32,093 nt of DNA, from positions 1 through 32,093 of IMG/VR virus record IMGVR_UViG_3300002231_001861. The stretch is one strand, 5' to 3'. Origin of the DNA: a virus. The notes under the pieces were generated by a model. That model had not been told where the DNA came from and made no database searches. It was given only the letters and a program-made list of their open reading frames with translations. Positions 2,653 through 32,093 of this stretch are shown here, piece after piece. Every line of letters begins with the position of its first letter. Within the stretch, counting starts at the first letter, position 1. The translations under genes were made by a program, and so were the position numbers.

Positions 2653-2681
2653 TTGTCATAGTGTAATTGCCATGCTAAAAT
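2653..2681 (+). promoter_or_regulatory. strong sigma70-like promoter with extended -10, reading into a structured segment
   Basis: TTGTCA (2653-2658, 5 of 6 consensus), exactly 17 bases, then TAAAAT (2676-2681, 5 of 6) preceded by TGC, an extended -10. No convincing protein gene follows. The predicted start near 2687 opens directly onto a G+C-rich run of hairpins. Confidence 0.65.
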
Positions 2682-2686
2682 ATTTA

Positions 2687-2872
2687 CACCGAAAACGTGG
2701 TGCAGGTGTCCAAGGCACGGACGCCGCGGCAGTCTGCTACTTACTACCTAACTTCTTACGAAGTGACCTTCTACCCTGTAAAACCCTTATGTATCCTGCC
2801 CTGTCAGGGTACTTAGGTTGTAGTTATGTATCCCATGGTAATGGGTATCTAGGGTATGTATGTCATACCTAG
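2687..2872 (+). ncRNA. candidate structured non-coding RNA (end uncertain)
   Basis: This segment lies downstream of a good promoter and has no ribosome-binding site or recognisable ORF. Its first 51 bases (2687-2737) are about two-thirds G+C in an AT-rich genome. Hairpins read by eye: CACC/GGTG near 2687-2702; a 7-bp stem GGTGTCC (2705-2711) with GGACGCC (2719-2725); ACTTC/GAAGT (2751-2764) with a TTAC loop; TACCCTG (2772-2778) with CAGGGTA (2805-2811), which competes with CCCTGTCAGGG (2799-2809); CCCAT/ATGGG (2832-2845); and CTAG-GTATG/CATAC-CTAG (2849-2872, one bulged G). The second stem contains a U-G pair on this strand that would be C-A on the other, favouring + strand RNA. From 2787 on it is antisense to the metallophosphoesterase gene. 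No T-run terminator is seen, so the 3' end is a guess. A convergent-operon boundary structure is the main alternative. Confidence 0.45.
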
Positions 2873-3569
2873 CAAAGTCAAACATACCATTCTTAACATT
2901 AGTAAGAACTGTAGTACCTCTCCAGTGATGGTTGTTATGGTTTTTATAGTTCTCGTCATGTAGGTAACTTGATCCAGATATAAGAGCTTGTATCCTTTTG
3001 TTCTTCTCTGTTATCTCTTCATGGTATTCCCATCCCTGTTTGTGTCCTACTACACAGCTACAATGCTTCTTTGCTATTAATTGTCTTGCTGTTCCGATTG
3101 CATTAGCGTTGTTTAGGTTTTGGAAAAAGTGCGTGAAAAGTACACCACCTATAGACTTAACCTCGCGGAAAGGGACAACTTCATCCCATCCTGTATAATC
3201 GAAGTCAAACTCATTCATAAGTTCTATAAGCTCATCGGGGCCGTATTCCAATGCTCTGTTACGTCTGTCCTCATGGTTACCCTTGAATATGATCTTCTTG
3301 CACAGCTTTCTATTGTCTGGCCACATTAGATCCAATATACTATTAAACTCACGTAATGCTTTATTACCAGCTCGTATATCAGAAAGGTACGACTTTGTTC
3401 TATGTGACTTTTTACCTTTGTCATATTTTGACAGAGAAGGCATATCCCAATGGTCTCCTATGTGAACTATAATATCAGGCTTAACCTCACATATATGGTA
3501 CGCAATTGGTACTAATGGGTTTCTTACTCCAGGTTTAACCTGAGTATCACCTATCTTATAAATGTTCAT
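2787..3569 (-). CDS. calcineurin-like metallophosphoesterase, 260 aa
   Basis: The order of motifs is that of phage metallophosphoesterases: IGDTQ (6-10), HIGDHWD (36-42), KGNHE (96-100), FTHFF with His147, and VVGHKQ (173-178). Most of the two-metal site is present, but the usual His after the first Asp is Gln10 and the final GHxH reads GHKQ, so metal binding may be altered. A MPSLSKYDKGKK segment after the second motif is typical of phage versions. The substrate is unknown (nucleotide, nucleic acid or phosphoprotein). It is the last gene of the late operon, and its ATG overlaps the preceding stop (TAATG). The last 20 residues lie in the hairpin-rich DNA and look like a late-acquired tail. 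Confidence 0.85.
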   Translation of the reverse strand: MNIYKIGDTQVKPGVRNPLVPIAYHICEVKPDIIVHIGDHWDMPSLSKYDKGKKSHRTKSYLSDIRAGNKALREFNSILDLMWPDNRKLCKKIIFKGNHEDRRNRALEYGPDELIELMNEFDFDYTGWDEVVPFREVKSIGGVLFTHFFQNLNNANAIGTARQLIAKKHCSCVVGHKQGWEYHEEITEKNKRIQALISGSSYLHDENYKNHNNHHWRGTTVLTNVKNGMFDFARYDIHTLDTHYHGIHNYNLSTLTGQDT

Positions 3570-3937
3570 TACATCAACCCAAGTAAGCCCCTTAAGAACA
3601 TCTTAAGGCTTTCCTTCTCTTCATGCTCATGTCCACAATTTTCGCCATATTCGGACATTCCAAGAATACCTTTTGGGTTAGCTTTGAATTTTTGCTTTAA
3701 TATCTTATCTTCCGTTTCTCCAAGATCATCTATCTCAGAGTTTCTATCTTGCGGATTTTCCCCATTGTTTAGATCTGGCTCAACATCTCCATCAGATTCA
3801 TCTCTTTCAGACTTAGAGCTTTCATCAGCATCATCTGCAGGATCATTTATCTCGTTCATATCCTCACCCATTTTCTTTAAATCCTCAATAGACTTTGGCG
3901 CACGATTAACCTTTTTAACTTTAATTAACAAACCCAT
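3569..3937 (-). CDS. acidic low-complexity protein, 122 aa, unknown
   Basis: The start at 3937 is chosen because AAGGAGAT lies seven bases upstream; an ATG seven codons earlier has no such site. The basic N-terminus (MGLLIKVKKVNRAPKS) is followed by about 60 mostly Asp/Glu/Ser residues, then a short C-terminal helix (MFLRGLLGLM). The profile is of a disordered adaptor-like protein. It sits between the large internal virion protein and the metallophosphoesterase and may be a minor virion component. No known domain is recognised. Confidence 0.7.
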   Translation of the reverse strand: MGLLIKVKKVNRAPKSIEDLKKMGEDMNEINDPADDADESSKSERDESDGDVEPDLNNGENPQDRNSEIDDLGETEDKILKQKFKANPKGILGMSEYGENCGHEHEEKESLKMFLRGLLGLM

Positions 3938-3947
3938 ACAGATCTCC

Positions 3948-6827
3948 TTATAATCCAATTAAACTTTTTTTACTTCTATCTTTCAGTTTCTGGAGAGCCT
4001 TTCTCCTTTTAACTGTTCTTTTAAACAAATCAAGTCTTTCTCTTTGTCTTATCGGAAGCACTTTGTTTCCAATAGTAACAGCGGTATCCTTGCCCTTATT
4101 TACTACATCATTACGTGATCCAAGTATTTGATCCAATATTGGAACAGGTGCGAGATTACCTCTTATATTATCTATTGTTCCAGAAAAGTCTGACGTGGTT
4201 ATAAGGTTTCCTTTCTTATCCCTACCAGTTCCAGGCAAAACAGACTCTAACGCAAGAGATCTCGAGAATAACTTCTTTGTTCCAAACTTAGATCCGCTTG
4301 GTCTAACATTTTGGTCTAGTCCAAATTCTTTATTACGCAGATTTTCTACAATAGTTTTTAAAACAGGGTCAAGCTTGCCACCAAAGTTCCTTGCAGAGAA
4401 ATTATCTAAAGCATCAACAAGAGATACGTTAGGTGTTTGTATTATGTCATTTCCATCGTTTGATATTCTGTAAAATGAATCCAACATCCAATCAGGTATC
4501 CCTTTTCTTTCCTCTTCTGTCGGAGCCCTTCCTGTTGATCTAATAGCACGAACTGTTTTTAATATACCTGCACCATTGTTCTCTATCTCTCTAAGGTAAA
4601 ATGCAAGGTTTTTTGAATAAAACGAATAGAAAGGAACAATTCTCTTAAGCACCTTCTCTTCAAAAGCACTAAGATTTGAATAATCAAAAAAGGTTTCATT
4701 GGTAAGGTCTTTTGCATCGTCTATGATTTGTCTTATCTCTGGTATGCTTTCGTGAACATTAAGAATACCTTTCTCTTTTACAATCTTTAAAAGGTTTTTA
4801 TTTTTAGCTATTCTATGATTTACAATATCGTTAAAAAAAGAAACCCTCGCTCCATTCTCAACAGTACGTCCATATCTTCCGACTGTATTATTTAAAACAT
4901 TCTGATACCCTTCAATTGTTTTAGCAATCTTTCCTGGAGTTTCCTTCTTTATCATCTTCTTGATTTTAAGTATATCGTCAGGGTTTTCCGTTTTAGCAAG
5001 TATAGCATTTAGTTTAGCCAGTCTTGTTTCGGATCCAGTTCTTTTTAACATATCATCAAAGAAGTTTGTATCAAGGACACCAACTTTATTTGCCAGATAT
5101 ATAGACTCATCGGCAACATCCAAATGCTTGAACCCATTATTGGGCGAGGTCATCTTGAACAACTTCCTAAAGGTTTTACTTACGGGCAACTGGTCAAAGG
5201 CAACACCTGCACCTCTTTTTACACCAAGCTTCATCATAGCCCTAACCGAGTTTTCAAACATATTGTTTTTTATCCACGATGTACTAGCTAGAAGAACTGA
5301 CGACTTCCATAGTCTTCTATATTTATCCCAAGCATTGATAGCATTATCAAACTTTCCACCATTTTTTTCACCAAACAAAACCTTTGTTCCGTTTACTTCT
5401 ATAGCTCTGTTTATATCAAATGCTTTCTTGTGCAGCCTATCTGCCATTGATCTTGTAAAGTTATCCGCCCCAGTCTTAATCCTTTTATCAAGAGTAAGAA
5501 AACCAGATGTATCCTCCATTACCCTTTGAACCATACCAGATACGTGTTTAGCATCGTCTTTTAATCTGTATATATCCTTTATTGAGTCAGGAAGTAATAT
5601 CTCTGTTGAATGAAAATCTAAAGGTACGACATCAAATACCTGCTCATTACTTCCTAATTTATTTAAAAGCTTGGGACGCTCTATATTAAACTTCTTTATA
5701 AGCTCCCTATTATCATGCACGTACCTGTTTACAAAATCCCTCATTTTAGTGTCACCAGACTTTTTCAAAACAGCATCAACCTGCTGCCCTACTGACGTGT
5801 TAACCTTTGCAGTTATTTCGTTAAGCTCGCTAAGGTTTAATTTCTTAACAGTTTTACTACCCTCTGGTATAAGTTTGTTTTTTTCTTTCAGTGTAAAATC
5901 AATAAGCTTGTTTCTAAGTATAACAGAGTCAGACTTTGCACTATCAACTGTCTTTGTGAACGATTCTAATATTGAGTCAGTATCGCTTGCCTTCATATCT
6001 TTAAAAAACGAAGTCCTTGTTTCAAGGTATGCGTCTTTCATTATCTTTGAGTGCTTGTCAAATTCTTTCTGCATACGAAAGGCTTCAGAAGGTTTAATCT
6101 CTCTTAACCCCTTACCTGCTTTTGTCATCGAAAAGTATTCGTCACCTAATGTTGATTTTGTCATTGCATCGTAGAATGTGTCGCCAAGTTTACCCAGTGC
6201 CTTAACACCATCTTTTGTAAGATAGTGTGACAATGCACCAACGGCAAATCCTCTTCCTATTGCGTTTAGGGAATTTGATAAGGCATTTTCATCAAGTCTT
6301 GCACCAGATAATCCTATTGCAGATCCAACAACACCCCTAGTAAGTATTGAGCTTATAGCGGTCTTTGTCAGGTTCCTTCCTTTACCTAATCCTTTTATCA
6401 AAGCCATTCCTGGAACCCATGTTAATGGATCCAATGCACTTTCTACAGCGAAGTTTAATACAAAGTTTGATGCGTTATTAATAAATCCGTCATTGCTTAT
6501 TGGTTTTAGTCCGACTTTTTTTATTAGATCATTCTTGAAACTATTAGTGTCTACGAATTTTGTCCCTCTTATTATATCCATAACATCTACATCTTTGACT
6601 GACTCTAGGCCAATTAACTCTCCTGCGGCATTTAGCCCAAGAGATGATGACTTGTTGAATATATCTATTACATTTTCAAATAATGTCTGAGCAGGTGGAG
6701 CAACACCTTCTGCTCCAGTTTCGTCACCAAATGAAAAGCTCCCTCTATCAAACGAGAAACCTTTGCTGTCGTCTAAACTAAAATTGCTTTGACTATTAAG
6801 ATCTTCGTCAAGGTTAAAACCTGCCAT
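3948..6827 (-). CDS. large internal virion / ejection-type protein, 959 aa
   Basis: This is the biggest protein of the window. It has a Ser/Phe/Gly-rich acidic N-terminus (1-45), small-residue hydrophobic stretches between 120 and 200, and long helical regions. A segment at 502-527 (KYRRLWKSSVLLASTSW...KNNMFENS) and one at 714-741 (FDYSNLSAF...KRIVPFYSFYSKNL) are typical of large phage internal proteins carrying an LPD38-like domain. The expected role is to sit inside the capsid and form a DNA conduit during ejection, as T7 gp15/gp16 do. No lytic transglycosylase motif is visible. The start is supported by AGGA eight bases upstream. The gene follows the 331-aa gene directly, without any spacer. 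Confidence 0.75.
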   Translation of the reverse strand: MAGFNLDEDLNSQSNFSLDDSKGFSFDRGSFSFGDETGAEGVAPPAQTLFENVIDIFNKSSSLGLNAAGELIGLESVKDVDVMDIIRGTKFVDTNSFKNDLIKKVGLKPISNDGFINNASNFVLNFAVESALDPLTWVPGMALIKGLGKGRNLTKTAISSILTRGVVGSAIGLSGARLDENALSNSLNAIGRGFAVGALSHYLTKDGVKALGKLGDTFYDAMTKSTLGDEYFSMTKAGKGLREIKPSEAFRMQKEFDKHSKIMKDAYLETRTSFFKDMKASDTDSILESFTKTVDSAKSDSVILRNKLIDFTLKEKNKLIPEGSKTVKKLNLSELNEITAKVNTSVGQQVDAVLKKSGDTKMRDFVNRYVHDNRELIKKFNIERPKLLNKLGSNEQVFDVVPLDFHSTEILLPDSIKDIYRLKDDAKHVSGMVQRVMEDTSGFLTLDKRIKTGADNFTRSMADRLHKKAFDINRAIEVNGTKVLFGEKNGGKFDNAINAWDKYRRLWKSSVLLASTSWIKNNMFENSVRAMMKLGVKRGAGVAFDQLPVSKTFRKLFKMTSPNNGFKHLDVADESIYLANKVGVLDTNFFDDMLKRTGSETRLAKLNAILAKTENPDDILKIKKMIKKETPGKIAKTIEGYQNVLNNTVGRYGRTVENGARVSFFNDIVNHRIAKNKNLLKIVKEKGILNVHESIPEIRQIIDDAKDLTNETFFDYSNLSAFEEKVLKRIVPFYSFYSKNLAFYLREIENNGAGILKTVRAIRSTGRAPTEEERKGIPDWMLDSFYRISNDGNDIIQTPNVSLVDALDNFSARNFGGKLDPVLKTIVENLRNKEFGLDQNVRPSGSKFGTKKLFSRSLALESVLPGTGRDKKGNLITTSDFSGTIDNIRGNLAPVPILDQILGSRNDVVNKGKDTAVTIGNKVLPIRQRERLDLFKRTVKRRKALQKLKDRSKKSLIGL

Positions 6828-7823
6828 TTATCTATCCTGTCTGGTTATCATGTCAAATGTATTAGCGAACTCTTCTGCTGTTATACTTTTGTTTTCCTTT
6901 TTCTTTTTTAATATTTGAACCTGTCTCATCATTTTTTCACCAAGGGTCTTTTCGTCTAGGTTTTTAGATTGAGAGAGTACTCTTATTTTATCAAGTGCAT
7001 TTCTATACGCAGAGTTTATGGCTCTTATTTTTGCGTCATATGCTTGAATATCAACTCTTCTTTTATTTTGATTTTTTGATGATAGTATATTTGCTATATT
7101 TGCCCTTGATAATTTATTCTCTCGCCTGTTTTTAGATAGCCCGAGAAGCTTATCAAGGTTAAGTTTTTTATCCTTTCTGTCGTCACCTCTAAGTAAACTG
7201 TTTATTGTAGCATCACTCTCTGTACCCTTTCTATCTTCTGCTTGCTGTAATATATCTGCACTAAGAAGTGCTTTTGTTTCAGCTAATGGGTCATCCTCTC
7301 CTTTTGCAGTAGCCGATATTCTTCCAGGAACAGCTTTACCAGATGCTCTAATTTGATCGTTTGCAAACTTATCAGATAACAGCAGGTCACTTAATGCGCT
7401 TAACTGTGTCTCAGCGTCAGCAAGATTCGCTCTGTCTATATCTAACTCTGCGGATGCATCAGCTTTTTCTTTTGCGTCAGTATTGTTTTTAAGTATATCA
7501 CTTAATCCGTTAAAGCTGTCGCTAAGGTTTACACTACTCGGGAGGTCTTCTTCTTTTATAGTTGGAATACTAGGTAGCGGATCAAGTGCTATTGGGTTTG
7601 TTTTTAAAACCCTATCTGTTCCATCCTCAAGCCCACTGCTTTGTTCTTGATTCTTACCTAAACTTTCTCCGAAATAATCTTTCAATGGGATAGGTGGCTG
7701 CTCATTATTCCCTCTGCCAAACAACCCAACAATATCAATAGGAGTTTTACCTGTAATCTTTAATGATGGCGGATTTACCTTGTCGTAAAATCTTCTAATT
7801 AATTCTTCTTTGTCTTTATCCAT
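6828..7823 (-). CDS. putative internal virion protein, 331 aa, helical
   Basis: The protein is hydrophilic: a Pro-containing N-terminal region (to about 95), an Ala/Asp/Leu-rich helical middle, and a strongly basic coiled-coil-like C-terminus (from about 215) rich in Lys, Arg and Asn. There is no membrane segment or enzyme motif. Its place in a run of four helical genes between the connector and the 959-aa protein suggests an internal or ejection protein. AAGGAC precedes the ATG. Confidence 0.65.
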   Translation of the reverse strand: MDKDKEELIRRFYDKVNPPSLKITGKTPIDIVGLFGRGNNEQPPIPLKDYFGESLGKNQEQSSGLEDGTDRVLKTNPIALDPLPSIPTIKEEDLPSSVNLSDSFNGLSDILKNNTDAKEKADASAELDIDRANLADAETQLSALSDLLLSDKFANDQIRASGKAVPGRISATAKGEDDPLAETKALLSADILQQAEDRKGTESDATINSLLRGDDRKDKKLNLDKLLGLSKNRRENKLSRANIANILSSKNQNKRRVDIQAYDAKIRAINSAYRNALDKIRVLSQSKNLDEKTLGEKMMRQVQILKKKKENKSITAEEFANTFDMITRQDR

Positions 7824-7833
7824 AAAAAAGTCC

Positions 7834-8232
7834 TTATTGAAACAACCCTCTGTTAGTGTTTAGGCCAATTGAACTATTAGATGTGTCAGTATCTATAATC
7901 CCTTTTGCTAGATCAAGCAGTTCTTTTTTTTGTTTTTTTGTTTTTGATAATTTTTCAGCACCACTTACCGCAAGCTTTTTAGACTCAAGGTTTGGTGTTA
8001 ATGGCACACCAGTTGGTGCCTTGCCTAATATTATAGACGATAAATTATTTGCCCGAATAGCTCTTTCGGCCATAAGATCCGCGATTGCACTATTATTAAC
8101 CTTCTTTTCTCCAGGAGTAAGAGAGCTTCTTTCTAGTAACTTTTGGAAAAATCCCTTATCATCATTGATTGTATCGAGAACATCCTTATCTGTAAAAGCT
8201 GGCCCTGCACCCTTTAGTGTTTTAAAATCCAT
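7834..8232 (-). CDS. putative small internal virion protein, 132 aa
   Basis: The helical protein has a Lys-rich segment (SKTKKQKKELLDLAKG) and a polar C-terminus of Ser/Asn/Gly. AAGGGG lies seven bases before the ATG. It is transcribed between the Gly-rich 209-aa gene and the 331-aa gene with short gaps on both sides. I do not recognise the family. The role is inferred from context only. Confidence 0.65.
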   Translation of the reverse strand: MDFKTLKGAGPAFTDKDVLDTINDDKGFFQKLLERSSLTPGEKKVNNSAIADLMAERAIRANNLSSIILGKAPTGVPLTPNLESKKLAVSGAEKLSKTKKQKKELLDLAKGIIDTDTSNSSIGLNTNRGLFQ

Positions 8233-8250
8233 AATTAAACCCCTTGTATT

Positions 8251-8880
8251 TTACCCAAATAATCCGCCACCGCCACCACTAAAAAAGCTCCCAAGTCCTT
8301 TTGAAAAGCCTTCTCCTATATTGTTTGCGTCAGCGAGTAACCTATTTCCAAAGAAACCTAAGTCTGCATCAGCCTGAGCTTTTAATGCCGCATTTCTTCT
8401 TGCTGTCTCTAGTTGATTTGATGCATTTCTAGCTTCTATACCTTGACCAAGGTTAGCAGTAAATAACGATGCCTTATCAAGGAAACCTTGCTGATTAGCA
8501 AAGTCACCAATAGCTGATTTAGACAGAGCGTCAAATGTGTCACCTGCTGCCTGTCCTTGCTGTTTTGCTGTATTTAGGTTATTTAATGTGCTAAGTCTAT
8601 TAAAGAAAGAAGGATTACCTGCACCCCTCAAGGCTGCATTGTCAGCAGCATTTGTAAGAGCCCCTTGCCCTTGTGTTGATATATCGCCAATTCTTTCTTG
8701 ACCTTTCCTTTGTAAGAGATCCTGTGTTAATTGACCACCTTTCGACAGTCCTGTTATACCAGAATCTATTCTATTATTAAGCCTTCCAAGTTCGCTGGAT
8801 TTTTTTTCGTTGATATTTTTTAAAACAGTAGGATCTCCGCCAAATAAAGAGCTTCCTATGTTGTTTAAACTAAGTGCCAT
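8251..8880 (-). CDS. Ala/Gly/Gln-rich small virion protein, 209 aa (gp14-like position)
   Basis: This low-complexity helical protein is rich in Ala, Gln, Asn and Leu. It has a glycine run at its C-terminus (FFSGGGGGLFG) and an N-terminal SSLFGG. Many podoviruses encode such an Ala/Gln-rich protein as the first of several ejection proteins, just after the connector/tail genes. GAGGATTAA precedes the ATG, and the start abuts the connector stop. The assignment is by composition and position. Confidence 0.65.
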   Translation of the reverse strand: MALSLNNIGSSLFGGDPTVLKNINEKKSSELGRLNNRIDSGITGLSKGGQLTQDLLQRKGQERIGDISTQGQGALTNAADNAALRGAGNPSFFNRLSTLNNLNTAKQQGQAAGDTFDALSKSAIGDFANQQGFLDKASLFTANLGQGIEARNASNQLETARRNAALKAQADADLGFFGNRLLADANNIGEGFSKGLGSFFSGGGGGLFG

Positions 8881-9564
8881 TTAATCCTCGCTTTCATAAA
8901 AAGACATATCTGCAGGTAACTTATTATCGCTATTATCTAGCACCATGTCTGTTAATGTTTCTATCATAAGCCTTTTATATTCAATTTCTTCTGATTTAGC
9001 CTCAGCAAACATTGGGTTAGAATCTTTCTGTAATGCCCTCATTTTTGCATATGCTATAATATAATCTTCAAATTCATCAATATCACAAACATCAGTATCA
9101 AGAACAAGTGTTTTGGCATTTCGTATATACCATACTTTCAGTGTACCACTTTGAGGAACTGGTATCAATTGTATTTTGCGACCATTAGATGCAGTATTCA
9201 ATGGAACCCATCCACCTCCACCATTTGACAATGTGTTTGCATATAAAACCTGTATAGATGATGCTTTGTCCATGTCGTCTATTCTTGATATTTTATATGT
9301 CTCAGTTGAATTTCTAACAAGGATAAGAGATTTTACTTTATTTGCATATATGTCAGATGGGTAGTCGTATATATCCGTTCCAGATATTATTGATACTTCA
9401 TCGTATGATAAAAAATAAGGCTCATGTATACCAAGTATTTCAGACTGAGCAATCTTAATGCCTTTATTTATCCACCTGTCTATGTCTGTGTCATTTATAA
9501 GGTCACTATCTTGAAGATCTAAATCCTCTATAACCTCTGTTCTCATTTCTAAAAGAGTTTTCAC
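8881..9564 (-). CDS. head-tail connector / adaptor protein, 227 aa
   Basis: The N-terminus (LLEMRTEVIEDLDLQDSDL, then DIDRWINKGIKIAQSEI) is the helical pattern of phage adaptor proteins that bind below the portal (P22 gp4-like). A beta-rich middle and a helical C-terminus (YIIAYAKMRALQ...) fit the same family. The start is GTG at 9564, overlapping the 48-aa gene by GTGA and preceded by AGGGAGGA. The C-terminal tail is acidic. In the late operon it lies between the tail hub and the internal virion genes. Confidence 0.75.
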   Translation of the reverse strand: MKTLLEMRTEVIEDLDLQDSDLINDTDIDRWINKGIKIAQSEILGIHEPYFLSYDEVSIISGTDIYDYPSDIYANKVKSLILVRNSTETYKISRIDDMDKASSIQVLYANTLSNGGGGWVPLNTASNGRKIQLIPVPQSGTLKVWYIRNAKTLVLDTDVCDIDEFEDYIIAYAKMRALQKDSNPMFAEAKSEEIEYKRLMIETLTDMVLDNSDNKLPADMSFYESED

Positions 9565-11998: not shown

Positions 11999-12423
11999 TA
12001 CGCTGTTACCACCCTTATATTTAAGTTGTTATCATTAGAAAACAGATAGTACGTCGTGGCATCTATCTTTTCAGTAGTAGGATAAAACTCCTTCCAATTA
12101 CCAAGCAATACTGAATCCTGATAAAAGTATCTTCTAATATTACCTTCGTATGTTGCACCACTTGGCAGAGTCATTGTCGCCTTAAACATTCCATATGATG
12201 TTGTACCAGACAGGTGAGCGTTCCATACTATATGTGTATCCTTTATAAAGTCCGTTACATCTTTGCTTATATTTAAAGTTATAGATTTTGAGTCAACACC
12301 TGTATGTGAATGATTAATAAGTCTAGCAAATATATCATCAAGGATTGTAAATAGCGCATCACCCTGATCTAGTGTATCTGGAACCTCGTATGAACCAGTA
12401 CCAAAGTTAATAGTTTTCGACAT
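11998..12423 (-). CDS. tail-fibre-associated protein, 141 aa
   Basis: The protein is beta-rich. An HSHTGVDSKSI segment near residue 38 is of a kind common in phage tail-fibre or fibre-attachment proteins. Aromatic residues are frequent in the second half. It shares a TAATG junction with each neighbour and lies between the 241-aa protein and the tail hub, so a role at the hub-fibre junction is reasonable but inferred. Confidence 0.6.
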   Translation of the reverse strand: MSKTINFGTGSYEVPDTLDQGDALFTILDDIFARLINHSHTGVDSKSITLNISKDVTDFIKDTHIVWNAHLSGTTSYGMFKATMTLPSGATYEGNIRRYFYQDSVLLGNWKEFYPTTEKIDATTYYLFSNDNNLNIRVVTA

Positions 12424-13148
12424 TAAAATCCTCCTTCTGTTAGTTCGTCCAACAGATCATCCTTTAATTCATCTATTACACCATCATAAGGTACAGCCTC
12501 TATAAGCAATCTCGCCTCGCTTGGGCTACCATCCTTTAATCTTGTATATATTTGGCCAAACGATGCCTTCATTGCATCAACCTGTGAGCCTGTTTTCCCG
12601 TCATTAAAGTCCCTGACAAGATCTAAGCACTCGTTACATACAACCTTTTTTCTTTTTCCTCTTTCTTTTTTATTTTTTCTGGATTCTTTTTTTATCTCAC
12701 TTGGCCTATCAATAGCCTCTTGTGCTTCAAGTTCAAGTAAAGTTGTTATATCATTTTCTTTTATTATTCTTTCATATTCACTATGCATACTTGAATTATA
12801 CTTTCCAATAGCCTCAGCCCTGGAGTAGTAGTTTGTAATCAACCCAAGTCTTATCTCAAAGTCTAAGACTCTTGCTTTCTCCGCCTCAGCAGCAACAAGT
12901 TCAAGCCTAGCATTTTCATCGTTTATCATTCTTCCTTTTATTAAATCTTTTTCATCTTGAAGAACTGCTATATCGTCTAATACATATGCACTATTTAATT
13001 GAATCCTTCCGTATAACCCATTGCCAGTATCAGGAAGTAATGTATATAATGCTTCTCCAGACGGAAGCTCTGCGGAGTCATAAAGATTATTCAACACTTC
13101 ATCAATAAGATCACTTAGTGTTAATGCTTTTATTTGGTCTAACGTCAT
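12423..13148 (-). CDS. coiled-coil protein of the fibre cluster, 241 aa, unknown
   Basis: The long Glu/Ala/Arg/Leu helical segment (about 75-150) is followed by a very basic stretch (KKESRKNKKERGKRKK) and a CNEC motif. The C-terminal 80 residues are helical and end in a Leu/Asp/Glu tail. The late part (SFGQIYTRL...ARLLIEAV) resembles a helix seen in proteins neighbouring phage fibre genes. A fibre chaperone or structural adaptor is possible. AGAGGTAG supports the start. Confidence 0.6.
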   Translation of the reverse strand: MTLDQIKALTLSDLIDEVLNNLYDSAELPSGEALYTLLPDTGNGLYGRIQLNSAYVLDDIAVLQDEKDLIKGRMINDENARLELVAAEAEKARVLDFEIRLGLITNYYSRAEAIGKYNSSMHSEYERIIKENDITTLLELEAQEAIDRPSEIKKESRKNKKERGKRKKVVCNECLDLVRDFNDGKTGSQVDAMKASFGQIYTRLKDGSPSEARLLIEAVPYDGVIDELKDDLLDELTEGGF

Positions 13149-18599: not shown

Positions 18600-19030
18600 T
18601 GCTTATCAAATATAACATTAGCTAGACATCTAACTTCTGTTACTCCTGTGTTTTTATATTTAATCCTTATTCTTAATGTATCTGCCACTATTGCAGGATC
18701 TTTTGGATTTAGTTTACTCATAAAGTTATCTGGTATCAATATAGGTTGACTCTGTGTATCTGGCTGAACATACCAACCCTCACCAAACTCATTAATTATC
18801 TGATCTGTTAATAGGTCATAAACAGGATGTTGTATATTTGCTACTATCTGAAACCACACTTGATCCCCGAAAGAATGCCCACTCAAGATCAATTGTATTC
18901 CACTGATCCATTTGACATAAGGGATAGTAAAATCACTGTTTACTGTTGATGATGGCTGAATTAAAAAATCAAAACAACCTTCGTAATCTGATTTTAAATC
19001 TTTTGCATATTTTTCACTTGCTACGCCCAT
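18596..19030 (-). CDS. beta-rich virion protein, 144 aa
   Basis: There is no signal peptide or enzyme motif. Beta strands with many aromatics (KWISGIQLILSGHSFGDQVW, GEGWYVQPDTQSQPI) end in LRIRIKYKNTG and a short strand. The composition fits a head or tail surface protein. The gene overlaps the 70-aa gene and shares one base with the 409-aa gene, so it probably belongs with the latter's structure. The family is unknown. Confidence 0.55.
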   Translation of the reverse strand: MGVASEKYAKDLKSDYEGCFDFLIQPSSTVNSDFTIPYVKWISGIQLILSGHSFGDQVWFQIVANIQHPVYDLLTDQIINEFGEGWYVQPDTQSQPILIPDNFMSKLNPKDPAIVADTLRIRIKYKNTGVTEVRCLANVIFDKQ

Positions 19031-20259
19031 CAGTAAACCTCCAGAAAATGAATATTTCCAAACACATCTTCATTTCCTGACGTTGTTCGTCCTGCCAAGG
19101 TTAGTGTATCTGCAACTCCGTCAAAGTCTGATAATATTTTCATTAATGTATCTTGTGAGTCTGACGATCCCCTAGTTTCTTTTGATATGTAAAATATTTC
19201 TATAACCTCTCCACCGCTAATGGTAGTTGAAGCGATGTCTAATTCGGCAATCGAGTTAATTCCGACACTGTTCCAAATTGTTCCGCCACCTAGTGTAGCA
19301 TTAACGAGAACTTGGATCTCAAAGTTTTTACCTCCGTCCAATAATACTTGATATTCTTTTGGTATAATCTGCGCTCTGTTGTAAGCAGACTTTAATCTTA
19401 TTGAACAAATAGGTTTTAAAGTAGTTGTTATGTTTATCTTACTTATTCCCCTGCCTGCGGCTCTAGCAAAATCCGCATGGCTTTGATCTCCTTCAACTAT
19501 AACCGAACAACAGATTGCATCTACCCAACAAGCTGAGACTGGAGCAGATTTATTAAAAACCTCCCATCTCATAGGTAAGTCAGGACTAGACATATAGACA
19601 CCGCTTGTAATGTTAGCGTGAGTAAATTCATGGGCATACATTATTATTCCATTAATATCAAAACCCATTCTTACACGTCCAACACCAAGATATTGAAAGT
19701 CAAAAACTACAATCATGTTTTTGGTAAAGTCTAAAGTAATTCCACTGTCACCAGTTCCATCAAACTTGTCTATATTCCAACTAGCTTGCTCTACAGCATT
19801 TTCAACTACAGATCCAGTTGTTTTTGACCTTATCGTGAAGTAGTGACTAGCTCCGTTCTGCTCAAAAAAGAAACCATTATAATCGTCAAAGTTTCCGACA
19901 CGTTGAGCGCAACCGCTTGAACCTGTACCCATTACAGCAGTAATCATTCTTAATGCAGATTGACCACCTATGTATCTAAAATATTCTTTTGTTTGTCTCG
20001 ATGCTCTATCATTGAGAATAGTAGTTCCAGTTAATCTAACCTTTGCTTCCGCTTTAGTATAAGCCCTAGTTCCGCCAATTAGCTTCTCTGTAAACTCTAA
20101 TGGTTTATCGTTATTGTTTAATACAGCACTATACAAAACAACAGGATTGGAAACACGTAAACGAGAAAAGGCATCAAGGTTAGCACTATCATCTAGTGTT
20201 ACCCCGACACCTGTAACTGTTTTCTTTTTTCCGTTATCTAAGACTACAAGCCCAGCCAT
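19030..20259 (-). CDS. phage surface/tail structural protein, 409 aa (DAFSRLRVSNP family)
   Basis: The N-terminal NLDAFSRLRVSNPVVLYSA motif, a Q-Y-FRYIGGQSALRMITAVMG-like segment and FDFQYLGVGRVRMGFDINGI with a following HEFTHANI identify a virion protein type frequent in marine podoviruses and cyanophages. A single large beta domain is likely. The molecular role is unestablished; a fibre or capsid-surface binding protein is plausible. It follows the decoration-type gene with a seven-base gap. Confidence 0.7.
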   Translation of the reverse strand: MAGLVVLDNGKKKTVTGVGVTLDDSANLDAFSRLRVSNPVVLYSAVLNNNDKPLEFTEKLIGGTRAYTKAEAKVRLTGTTILNDRASRQTKEYFRYIGGQSALRMITAVMGTGSSGCAQRVGNFDDYNGFFFEQNGASHYFTIRSKTTGSVVENAVEQASWNIDKFDGTGDSGITLDFTKNMIVVFDFQYLGVGRVRMGFDINGIIMYAHEFTHANITSGVYMSSPDLPMRWEVFNKSAPVSACWVDAICCSVIVEGDQSHADFARAAGRGISKINITTTLKPICSIRLKSAYNRAQIIPKEYQVLLDGGKNFEIQVLVNATLGGGTIWNSVGINSIAELDIASTTISGGEVIEIFYISKETRGSSDSQDTLMKILSDFDGVADTLTLAGRTTSGNEDVFGNIHFLEVY

Positions 20260-23928: not shown

Positions 23929-25986
23929 CTACGCTTGCGGCGCATTGTTTATAAGAGGAACTTGCGATTCCACTTGTTGTTTATTACTATTACCAACCTG
24001 AGATTGCGTCCCTTTTGGTATTTGTGAAAACTCTTTTAGGAAAACACCTTGTTGTTGCAACTTCTCCATCATCCATTGAATTGTTTCCGATGGTGCTTTA
24101 ATCCTTTCAACTTTACCAGTTACTGGATTAAGCCAAGATGCGTTTATTGTTGTTAAGAAGCCGCCACTAGGTATCAGCCCTAGCTCAGAGTTCTTAATAG
24201 CTTCAAGCTGTACTGCTTTTGCTGTTGTGTGTAATTGTATTTTATCTTTATAATTCTGTTGTATCTGACTGTCTAAAAACTTAAAGTCCGACTTTGTCAT
24301 CCTTGATGAAAGAGAATTAAGCATTAAGTCGTGATCGTCAAATTCATTAATAGGTACAATCTCGCCTCTATCTAACGCTAGTAATGTATTGTCAACATAA
24401 TCCTGTTTCGATGTAAGTGTAGAGGATAACGATTCTTTTGAGCCAAATGGCATATCTTTAATAAGCATACCTAGTTGCTCTGGTTGAAGCGAGCTACCTG
24501 CATATTGTAGAATTGAAGTAGCCCTTAGTACTTCACCAAACTTTGTCTCTATATCACCCGACATTGGCTCAACATAGAAATCAAAAGAGTCATCACTAAG
24601 TTTTTTAAACTCAGAAATATTGACAGTTTCAGTTGCACCCATGACTTTAATAGCCATGCTTTCGGGTAAATGCTTTTGTGCGAGCTTTAGTGCAATTGAA
24701 AATATTTCTGTTTCAAAGTCTTCATATTTTGTACTATATATACTAAACCTTCTCTTATCTTTCATTGACGTATAAAGCATTTGGTATGGGTCACCTTGTG
24801 GTGCCTTCTCTTCGTTTATAAACGCTAAGTTACAAGCCTCGTACATTTCCTGTATTTGTCTAACTTGATATTCTAAATACTGCGCACCAGATCTACCTGC
24901 TTGAATAACAGGCATTTCACCTGCATAAGAGTAAGATCTTATTCCTGCCATACTTCCTGCGCTTGATAGCTTTGTACCTTTTTGAATAAAAACCTTATCA
25001 TCACCTAAAGTAATCTGATGTTCTGCCATTTTGGAAGCACTTCGATTTATTTCAATTTGATATGGACGACATATTTTAATTATAGATGTACTTCTAGCCG
25101 ATGTTGTCATCTCGTCAAAACCAAGATACACCCAATTCCATTGACCAAACGGAAGTCCAGTTTTTGTAACAACAAAGTCTTTCGTAAACATAACATACTT
25201 ACCTTCTGGGTTTTCCAAGTCAGGTCTTCCGTAGTATTCCATTATTACGACTTTATCTTTTACTTCTTTTATTACACCATTGTATGCATCAAAGGCATGA
25301 TGTCCTGATGAGATACCAGGTTTAATATTACCAACCATTTCTGGCTTAAGTTCTTTTACTAATGCCTTAAAATCTTCAAGGTCAACGATTGATTCGTGTA
25401 TCAACCATCTCGCGTCTTCAAAGTCTCTTGCTGATGGATCTAGCTTTATATCGAAACCAAAGGCTTTATCTATTGCTATCTGACCTCCAGGGAGCTTTAT
25501 TGGTTCGCCAAACTCATTTAACCCTGCGTCAACAAGCGGCCCCGACGATGGGTCGTATGAAACTTTTGCGAATGTTTCACCTATGGTCACAAAGTCATCA
25601 ACAAACTTACGTTGCTTCTTTCTCCACTTATTAGTTCTTTTAATCCACATAAGTACAGAATTAGCAAGCTCTGATGCCTTATTGTCGGACAATTCTTCCT
25701 TGTTGTATGGCCTAGTTGAAACACTAGGATTGCCGTCAAGGATTGCGTTAGTATATATGTTTACAACCCTTGGGATATGATTCTTTGTTATACGTATTTC
25801 TGGCTTGTCAAAACTAGACACCCTTCCACGAAGAGTATCACTAAACCCATTTACTTTAGCCTTTTTATGGTGCTTGCCAGACTTTACAAGGATATTATTT
25901 CTCTGCTCAGCAAAGATAGCTTCGTCAGCCCTTTTTGCCATACTGTGCTTTTTTAATAGATCCTGGTGTTCTTTGTCTTGCTTCAA
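23929..25986 (-). CDS. portal protein, 685 aa
   Basis: The large size, position after terminase and before scaffold, and sequence features fit podovirus portals: an N-terminal helical region, the conserved FVDDFVTIGETFAKVSYDP segment, FGFDIKLDPSARDFEDARW, and a long helical stem/crown region with a Gln-rich C-terminus. The start is TTG at 25986, overlapping the preceding stop (TTGA), with AAGGAAG six bases upstream; the next ATG is 15 codons in. It forms the dodecameric DNA gate at one capsid vertex (family knowledge). Confidence 0.87.
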   Translation of the reverse strand: MKQDKEHQDLLKKHSMAKRADEAIFAEQRNNILVKSGKHHKKAKVNGFSDTLRGRVSSFDKPEIRITKNHIPRVVNIYTNAILDGNPSVSTRPYNKEELSDNKASELANSVLMWIKRTNKWRKKQRKFVDDFVTIGETFAKVSYDPSSGPLVDAGLNEFGEPIKLPGGQIAIDKAFGFDIKLDPSARDFEDARWLIHESIVDLEDFKALVKELKPEMVGNIKPGISSGHHAFDAYNGVIKEVKDKVVIMEYYGRPDLENPEGKYVMFTKDFVVTKTGLPFGQWNWVYLGFDEMTTSARSTSIIKICRPYQIEINRSASKMAEHQITLGDDKVFIQKGTKLSSAGSMAGIRSYSYAGEMPVIQAGRSGAQYLEYQVRQIQEMYEACNLAFINEEKAPQGDPYQMLYTSMKDKRRFSIYSTKYEDFETEIFSIALKLAQKHLPESMAIKVMGATETVNISEFKKLSDDSFDFYVEPMSGDIETKFGEVLRATSILQYAGSSLQPEQLGMLIKDMPFGSKESLSSTLTSKQDYVDNTLLALDRGEIVPINEFDDHDLMLNSLSSRMTKSDFKFLDSQIQQNYKDKIQLHTTAKAVQLEAIKNSELGLIPSGGFLTTINASWLNPVTGKVERIKAPSETIQWMMEKLQQQGVFLKEFSQIPKGTQSQVGNSNKQQVESQVPLINNAPQA

Positions 25987-30493: not shown

Positions 30494-30547
30494 GTATTAA
30501 ATCAAATCCTTTTGATCCTCTCATATATATTGTTTCAGATTGTTCCC

Positions 30548-30593
30548 AAAAAAGAAAGCCCTGTGCGTTAGTTTTTAGCTAAAACACAAGGCT
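30548..30593 (-). terminator. intrinsic terminator in the leader of the late operon
   Basis: On the - strand a 9-bp stem (30593-30585 with 30565-30557), with an inner TTAG/CTAA pairing, is followed by TTCTTTTTT. One pair is U-G on this strand but A-C on the other, so the structure is built for leftward RNA. It contains the 12-bp palindrome TTTTAGCTAAAA (30573-30584). It lies upstream of the first late gene. Confidence 0.75.
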
Positions 30594-30633
30594 CGTTCGA
30601 TATAATTGAGGGTACGAAAATATCTATGCGGCA

Positions 30634-30662
30634 ATGGTAGTATAGAATAGTTAATGTGTAAA
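30634..30662 (-). promoter_or_regulatory. possible weak leftward promoter of the late operon
   Basis: On the - strand TTTACA (30662-30657), 17 bases, TACCAT (30639-30634). A TATACT overlaps the spacer. Transcripts would run into the leader terminator at 30593-30548. The -10 match is poor, so this is tentative. Confidence 0.3.
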
Positions 30663-30678
30663 TAGAAATATCCAATAT

Positions 30679-30707
30679 TTGACATACAATATTTGCTACA
30701 ATAACAT
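30679..30707 (+). promoter_or_regulatory. rightward promoter for the small-gene operon at the right end
   Basis: A perfect TTGACA (30679-30684) is followed after 17 bases by TAACAT (30702-30707). The same stretch holds an extended -10 TGCTACAAT ending at 30702, and TACAAT also occurs at 30685. Either reading gives a start shortly before the AAGGAGG site of the gene at 30732. Confidence 0.6.
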
Positions 30708-30731
30708 TTAGTGATTAAGGAGGATACGCAA

Positions 30732-30941
30732 ATGAAATATAAAGAATCAGACATGATAGGTGAGGGATGGTTCCTACTTTCACCAGAAGGAAATGAGATA
30801 GTGTTAATAGACTCTACCTGCCTATGGTTAATAATGGTCGAGAGAATGTTTAGCCTTGGAGGCACTAGTGTTATCACAAAGGAACCTATGACAGTTTCTC
30901 AAGTCGAGGAATCGTTTGGCGAATGGATTATATTAGAATGA
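30732..30941 (+). CDS. small protein, 69 aa, unknown
   Basis: The start is fixed by TAAGGAGG nine bases before the ATG at 30732; an in-frame GTG at 30711 would include that site and is rejected. The sequence (GEGWFLLSPEGNEIVLIDST, VTVSQ-like VSQVEESFGEWIILE) is beta-rich and acidic, with no membrane or metal motif. It is the first gene of the rightward operon and overlaps the next by ATGA. The family is not recognised. Confidence 0.7.
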   Translation: MKYKESDMIGEGWFLLSPEGNEIVLIDSTCLWLIMVERMFSLGGTSVITKEPMTVSQVEESFGEWIILE

Positions 30942-31551: not shown

Positions 31552-31804
31552 AAGATTATTTCTACCTATAAAAAAGATTATCAACAGAGTAAGGATGTTC
31601 TTTAGTCATATTACGCTAAAGAGAAACACGAGAGAGTTCGTAAAAACCAGACCGCTATCCGATAAAGAGAAGAACAACCTACTTAATTGGGGAAGCAAGA
31701 AAAAGGGAAGGTTTAACACATTAGTCATAAGAGGAATGGATCCGTCTAAGGCATACGATATAGTGGAATATCAGAAAGGAGTCGTCAATGTGGAAAAAGA
31801 TTAA
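31538..31804 (+). CDS. basic small protein, 88 aa, unknown
   Basis: The GTG start is preceded by AGGAGG at ideal spacing, inside the upstream gene. The N-terminal 30 residues are basic and hydrophobic (LLTRRLFLPIKKIINRVRMF), suggesting a membrane-contacting amphipathic helix. The rest is Lys/Asn-rich (LLNWGSKKKGRFNTLVIRG). It lies just before the lysozyme and overlaps it by 17 bases, so a lysis-associated role is possible but unsupported by family evidence. Confidence 0.6.
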   Translation: MLLTRRLFLPIKKIINRVRMFFSHITLKRNTREFVKTRPLSDKEKNNLLNWGSKKKGRFNTLVIRGMDPSKAYDIVEYQKGVVNVEKD

Positions 31805-32093
31805 GTCATGGTTTTGCAGAACAAGATCCAATACTAAGAACCTGTTTAAGTCCAGCTTTGCCGCAATGTATATGGCAGCCTTCCCAAGTAACGATATAGG
31901 TAGAAAAGCAAAGGATGTAGCACTAGAGATAATGCAAAACAAATCAAGATACATAAATGTCTCGAGAGAGTTCGGTATGCCATGGGAAGTCGTAGGAGTT
32001 ATCCACTATCTTGAAGGTGGACTTAACTTCAGCAGGATACTACACAACGGCGAAAGATTACCGATAAAGAAAACAAAGCTAGTCCCAAAAGGA
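31788..32093 (+). CDS. lysozyme-family peptidoglycan hydrolase (endolysin), 3' partial
   Basis: The ORF is open to the window end (102 codons). After a basic N-terminus (MWKKIKSWFCRTRS) comes a helical region, then MPWEVVGVIHYLEGGLNF with a candidate catalytic Glu in HYLEGG, and SRILHNGERL. This is the arrangement of phage lysozyme-family proteins, where Glu lies in an HxLES/G motif followed by LHNG. There is no clear signal peptide, so export would rely on a holin. AAAGGAG seven bases upstream supports the ATG at 31788. The C-terminal part lies beyond the window. Confidence 0.8.
   Translation, partial: MWKKIKSWFCRTRSNTKNLFKSSFAAMYMAAFPSNDIGRKAKDVALEIMQNKSRYINVSREFGMPWEVVGVIHYLEGGLNFSRILHNGERLPIKKTKLVPKG

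Follow-up and report, generated by a model that had tools for sequence, protein, structure and literature searches.

The stretch of DNA analysed here, referred to as the window, comprises positions 1-32,093 of the viral record IMGVR_UViG_3300002231_001861 and has an overall G+C content of 37.2%. Leftward genes extend from position 2787 to about 30.2 kb and, as the terminase, the portal and virion proteins are encoded there, are assigned as the late operon. Rightward genes are found at both ends of the window, i.e., a helicase gene truncated by the left edge and several small genes. Positions 1-114 read as the interior of an intein (...NFVANGMVVHN) directly followed by SGKT, suggesting that the nucleotide-binding motif of the helicase is interrupted; an intein-like insert is present at the same place of the helicase in the distantly related contig L203 (ORF 4870-7458). 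At the right edge, positions 31789-32093 encode the start of a protein resembling the one encoded at 12042-12665 in the contig L290, where it is the neighbour of the helicase, and the window ends 31789-32093 and 1-1587 therefore probably adjoin. The genome is thus probably circularly permuted and slightly longer than the window. The virion structural protein encoded at 19030-20259 has its best named relatives in large cyanophages (36-37% identity), and the phage carrying it seems to be far smaller than these.

The ORF list leaves a convergent intergenic gap at 2617-2786, where the rightward helicase/spanin operon and the leftward late operon, which is roughly 27 kb long, end facing each other. 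The rightward operon is closed by an overlapping pair of + strand genes that read as spanin-like, the inner one at 2214-2396 and the outer one at 2362-2616 with the lipobox LISC. The same arrangement is also found in L001 and L202, and a Pfam search with the pair (2214-2616) returned no match. Upstream of it an intrinsic terminator (2168-2189, + strand) is followed by an extended -10 box, TGGTACAAT (2199-2207), which served as comparison promoter. The last gene of the late operon, at 2787-3569 on the - strand, encodes a metallophosphoesterase (phrog_221, E 2.4e-37; homologs 50-53% identical).

Within the gap, at 2653-2681 on the + strand, lies a sigma-70-like promoter sequence of the form TTGTCA-17-TGcTAAAAT. 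A first-pass annotation had described it as a near-consensus promoter with a 17-base spacer and an extended -10 element, and this description was confirmed: the site matches the consensus at 10 of 12 positions and carries TG in front of the -10 hexamer. When the 170-base gap is shuffled, a 10/12 site on one strand occurs in 2% of cases and one with the additional TG in 0.1%. Moreover, TGNTANAAT occurs seven times on the + strand, three of these within intergenic regions totalling 507 bases (binomial P 1.3e-4, an optimistic value as these regions were picked after the sites had been seen). All three are in rightward context (2121-2213, 2617-2786 and 30494-30737), the other two boxes being located upstream of the spanin-like genes and upstream of the rightward operon near 30.7 kb. 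As a class, promoter-like sites show no excess in this region, with 11 between 1500 and 4500 compared to 10.4 in shuffles. The site at 2653-2681 is somewhat more likely to be an active promoter than a silent one.

The first-pass annotation had further proposed that this promoter opens onto a possible new non-coding RNA within the segment up to 2872, G+C-rich, dense in hairpins and lacking a credible ORF. The right part of this segment (2787-2872) is the 3' end of the metallophosphoesterase gene on the - strand, so the absence of coding capacity does not hold. The placement antisense to the last late gene does hold: by sequence match, the promoter-like site at 2653-2681 lies on the strand opposite to this gene and points into its 3' end. 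The homologs of the phosphoesterase in L202, L001 and L002 stop about 15 residues earlier, and positions 2787-2831 encode a lineage-specific C-terminal tail that is absent from these three closest homologs. The last of the proposed stems (2849-2872) codes on the - strand for approximately residues 234-241, which align with the C-terminus of the homologs, and R234 and L240 are invariant in the four phosphoesterase sequences. Selection on the protein encoded by the other strand plausibly constrains the DNA around 2849-2872. Since the whole of 2787-2872 is phosphoesterase coding sequence and part of it a lineage-specific tail, stems drawn within it are a poor basis for an RNA. Two further ORFs were rejected, one at 2697-2813 (39 codons from GTG) and one at 2672-2872 (66 amino acids), which starts within the -10 region; no ribosome-binding site was seen for them, and no family was matched.

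The description of the sequence behind the promoter as two-thirds G+C applies to about 50 bases, namely to 2687-2738 on the + strand, which comprise the hairpins 2687-2702 and 2705-2725 and with 66% G+C form the richest 50-mer of the window. It does not apply to 2687-2872 as a whole, where the G+C fraction is 0.484, or to 2741-2872, where it is 0.417. A 50-mer of 66% G+C is found in 6 of 60 shuffles. As for the stems, six non-overlapping local hairpins, G-U pairs being allowed, can indeed be drawn on the + strand within 2687-2872 (2687-2702, 2705-2725, 2751-2764, 2791-2812, 2832-2845 and 2852-2870), compared to four on the - strand. On the + strand no other segment of the window has as many; on the - strand a segment near 25466 also holds six. 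Six or more hairpins occur in 2.4% of shuffles of the segment itself, and 23 of 60 dinucleotide shuffles of the whole window contain a segment with at least this number. This shows that hairpin counts in a hand-picked segment are misleading without a whole-window control. The folding energy gives z scores of -1.0 (+ strand) and -1.2 (- strand) against dinucleotide shuffles and of -0.7 for the 59-base G+C-rich part alone. With G+C adjusted by regression over the window, 1.7% of segments fold at least as well. The structure of the segment is at most slightly above the window average, and a slight residual excess is what selecting the most hairpin-rich place would yield. A weak terminator-like hairpin, TGCACCACGTTTTCGGTGTA followed by AATATTTTAG, is present by consensus match at 2685-2704 on the - strand, i.e., for leftward transcription. 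On the + strand no intrinsic terminator is predicted from 2687 to 3589, the first being expected at about 3590, which makes a discrete RNA with its end at 2872 unexpected.

Searches for relatives, based on four proteins and three alignments, yielded distant ones only; the helicase is common to two contigs (53% and 36%) and the large late protein to others. In L290 this large late protein (5884-9531) has an extra C-terminal part resembling a lysozyme-like domain, in which the protein of the window differs. In L202, L203, L290, L292 and L293 the end of the late operon faces the end of the helicase operon. The junctions themselves differ: that of L203 comprises four tRNA genes plus about 400 bases more, L290 has a gap of more than 400 bases with no convincing ORF, and L292 and L293 lack a gap altogether, their convergent genes overlapping. 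L001 has the spanin pair and the phosphoesterase with an extra gene in between. In L202 the phosphoesterase follows the outer spanin on the rightward strand and the gap comes next. The gene at this locus is therefore encoded on opposite strands in the window (2787-3569) and in L202 (2968-3705), as if an inversion or a separate acquisition of the gene had occurred. The L203 and L290 junctions contain rightward promoter-like sites of 10/12 or better (TTGACT-16-TATAAT and TTGACA-18-AATGAT, respectively) and no leftward ones, and the scan for 10/12 sites gave no comparable promoter in the L202 junction; three of the four gapped junctions compared, including that of the window, thus contain such a site.

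The junction DNA is not shared with the relatives found. Spacers of L202, L203 and L001 gave no alignment score with that of the window above shuffles. A likeness of the L290 junction to the opposite strand of the window (score 24, which 2% of mononucleotide shuffles also reach, in one of ten tests) was taken as chance. On the rightward strand, the fold z scores of the junctions of L290 (-0.26), L203 (-1.8) and L202 (-0.36) are ordinary to slightly stable. A nucleotide search of the phage collection with the segment found no match, and an exact 18-mer of the best hairpin has 0 matches in viral contigs; its presence in three bacterial genomes, with 257 billion bases searched, is compatible with chance and fewer than expected. 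The hairpin pattern with a free loop matched at least 120 stretches and is too unspecific. In summary, the convergent layout is kept in distant relatives, whereas the junction DNA is not.

With moderate confidence, we interpret the segment as a convergent operon junction of the ordinary kind that contains a plausible rightward promoter; if active, this promoter would give rise to a cis-antisense transcript. A host-type extended -10 promoter in the gap 2617-2786 would fire rightward with a start near 2688, and the transcript would enter the 3' end of the phosphoesterase gene in antisense orientation, perhaps running beyond it. Made early, such a transcript might dampen leaky late transcription by pairing or by polymerase collision. 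The hairpins would be ordinary local structure, in part a weak leftward terminator and in part phosphoesterase coding sequence. This interpretation is supported by the layout in five relatives despite the unconserved junction DNA, by the overlap with a protein-conserved gene, the last stem included, by the near-chance folding and hairpin density, by the rarity of the promoter match in shuffles and by the rightward sites of L203 and L290; it is weakened by L202, which has no comparable promoter, by L292 and L293, which have no gap, by the ordinary frequency of promoter-like sites in the region and by the G+C-rich 50-mer, for which it offers no specific account.

Antisense transcription over late genes is known in phages and by analogy may occur here. 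In the Pseudomonas phage PAK_P3, early antisense RNAs lie mostly over structural genes, the small ones being about 176 bases long (PMC4933390). The transcript from the window would likewise run antisense to phage late genes; however, the PAK_P3 RNAs were measured and lie nearly all within genes, whereas in the window there is only a promoter-like site, located where the late operon ends. The OOP RNA of phage lambda is about 77 bases long, covers the 3' end of cII and ends at a clear intrinsic terminator. This short RNA is made from its own promoter, is antisense to a phage gene and acts against cII (PMC12197685). A transcript from the window would share with it the own promoter and the antisense orientation to a phage gene, but it has no such terminator and covers no known regulatory gene. 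Compared with convergent operon junctions carrying intrinsic terminators, the operons of the window also meet tail to tail with hairpins in between; the difference is that the sole terminator candidate seen is a weak leftward hairpin, and that an internal rightward promoter sequence is added. Should the promoter be active, the junction would add a further example of antisense transcripts covering late genes, from a phage whose relatives identified here are all distant.

A less probable, though still sizeable, alternative is that the promoter-like site is inactive, being a relic or having arisen by chance, and that the junction consists of two operon 3' ends with their terminators. This would agree with the lack of excess of promoter-like sites as a class. 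Moreover, the + strand phosphoesterase of L202, located just past the outer spanin, has a TAAAAT box ahead of it, and the site in the window could thus be a leftover from before a gene inversion; however, the similarity to the L202 spacers is not significant. An extended -10 element combined with a 10/12 match is rare by chance in intergenic DNA, and the rightward sites found at the L203 and L290 junctions likewise speak against an inactive site. A more far-reaching variant of the antisense junction, which we regard as unlikely, is that the phage group retains a rightward junction promoter making a fast-evolving RNA against the late operon, conserved in position and not in sequence.

The dedicated structured RNA of about 185 bases starting at 2687 and acting by its fold, possibly as a two-stem switch, would matter more if true, and is still less likely. 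A credible promoter, the hairpin number, its bias towards the + strand and the G+C-adjusted fold speak in its favor. However, the 3' half is antisense to coding sequence, the fold and the hairpin density are near chance, a + strand terminator is far downstream and the segment recurs in none of the relatives found. In line with the first-pass statement that no known RNA family is matched, an Rfam search gave no match at gathering score, the best E at a permissive threshold being 4.9, and a permissive Infernal search likewise gave no support for tRNA or ribozyme readings. That the segment derives from a decayed tRNA gene or another RNA gene, as the locally raised G+C content and the tRNA genes in the L203 junction might suggest, is highly improbable, since a tRNA was detected neither by ARAGORN nor by Infernal even at E 5, a T-arm signature was not seen in the segment and nothing aligns with the L203 spacer beyond its tRNAs. 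The tRNA genes of L203, located at 7710-8025, are those for Pro, Gln and His and one detected by Infernal only.
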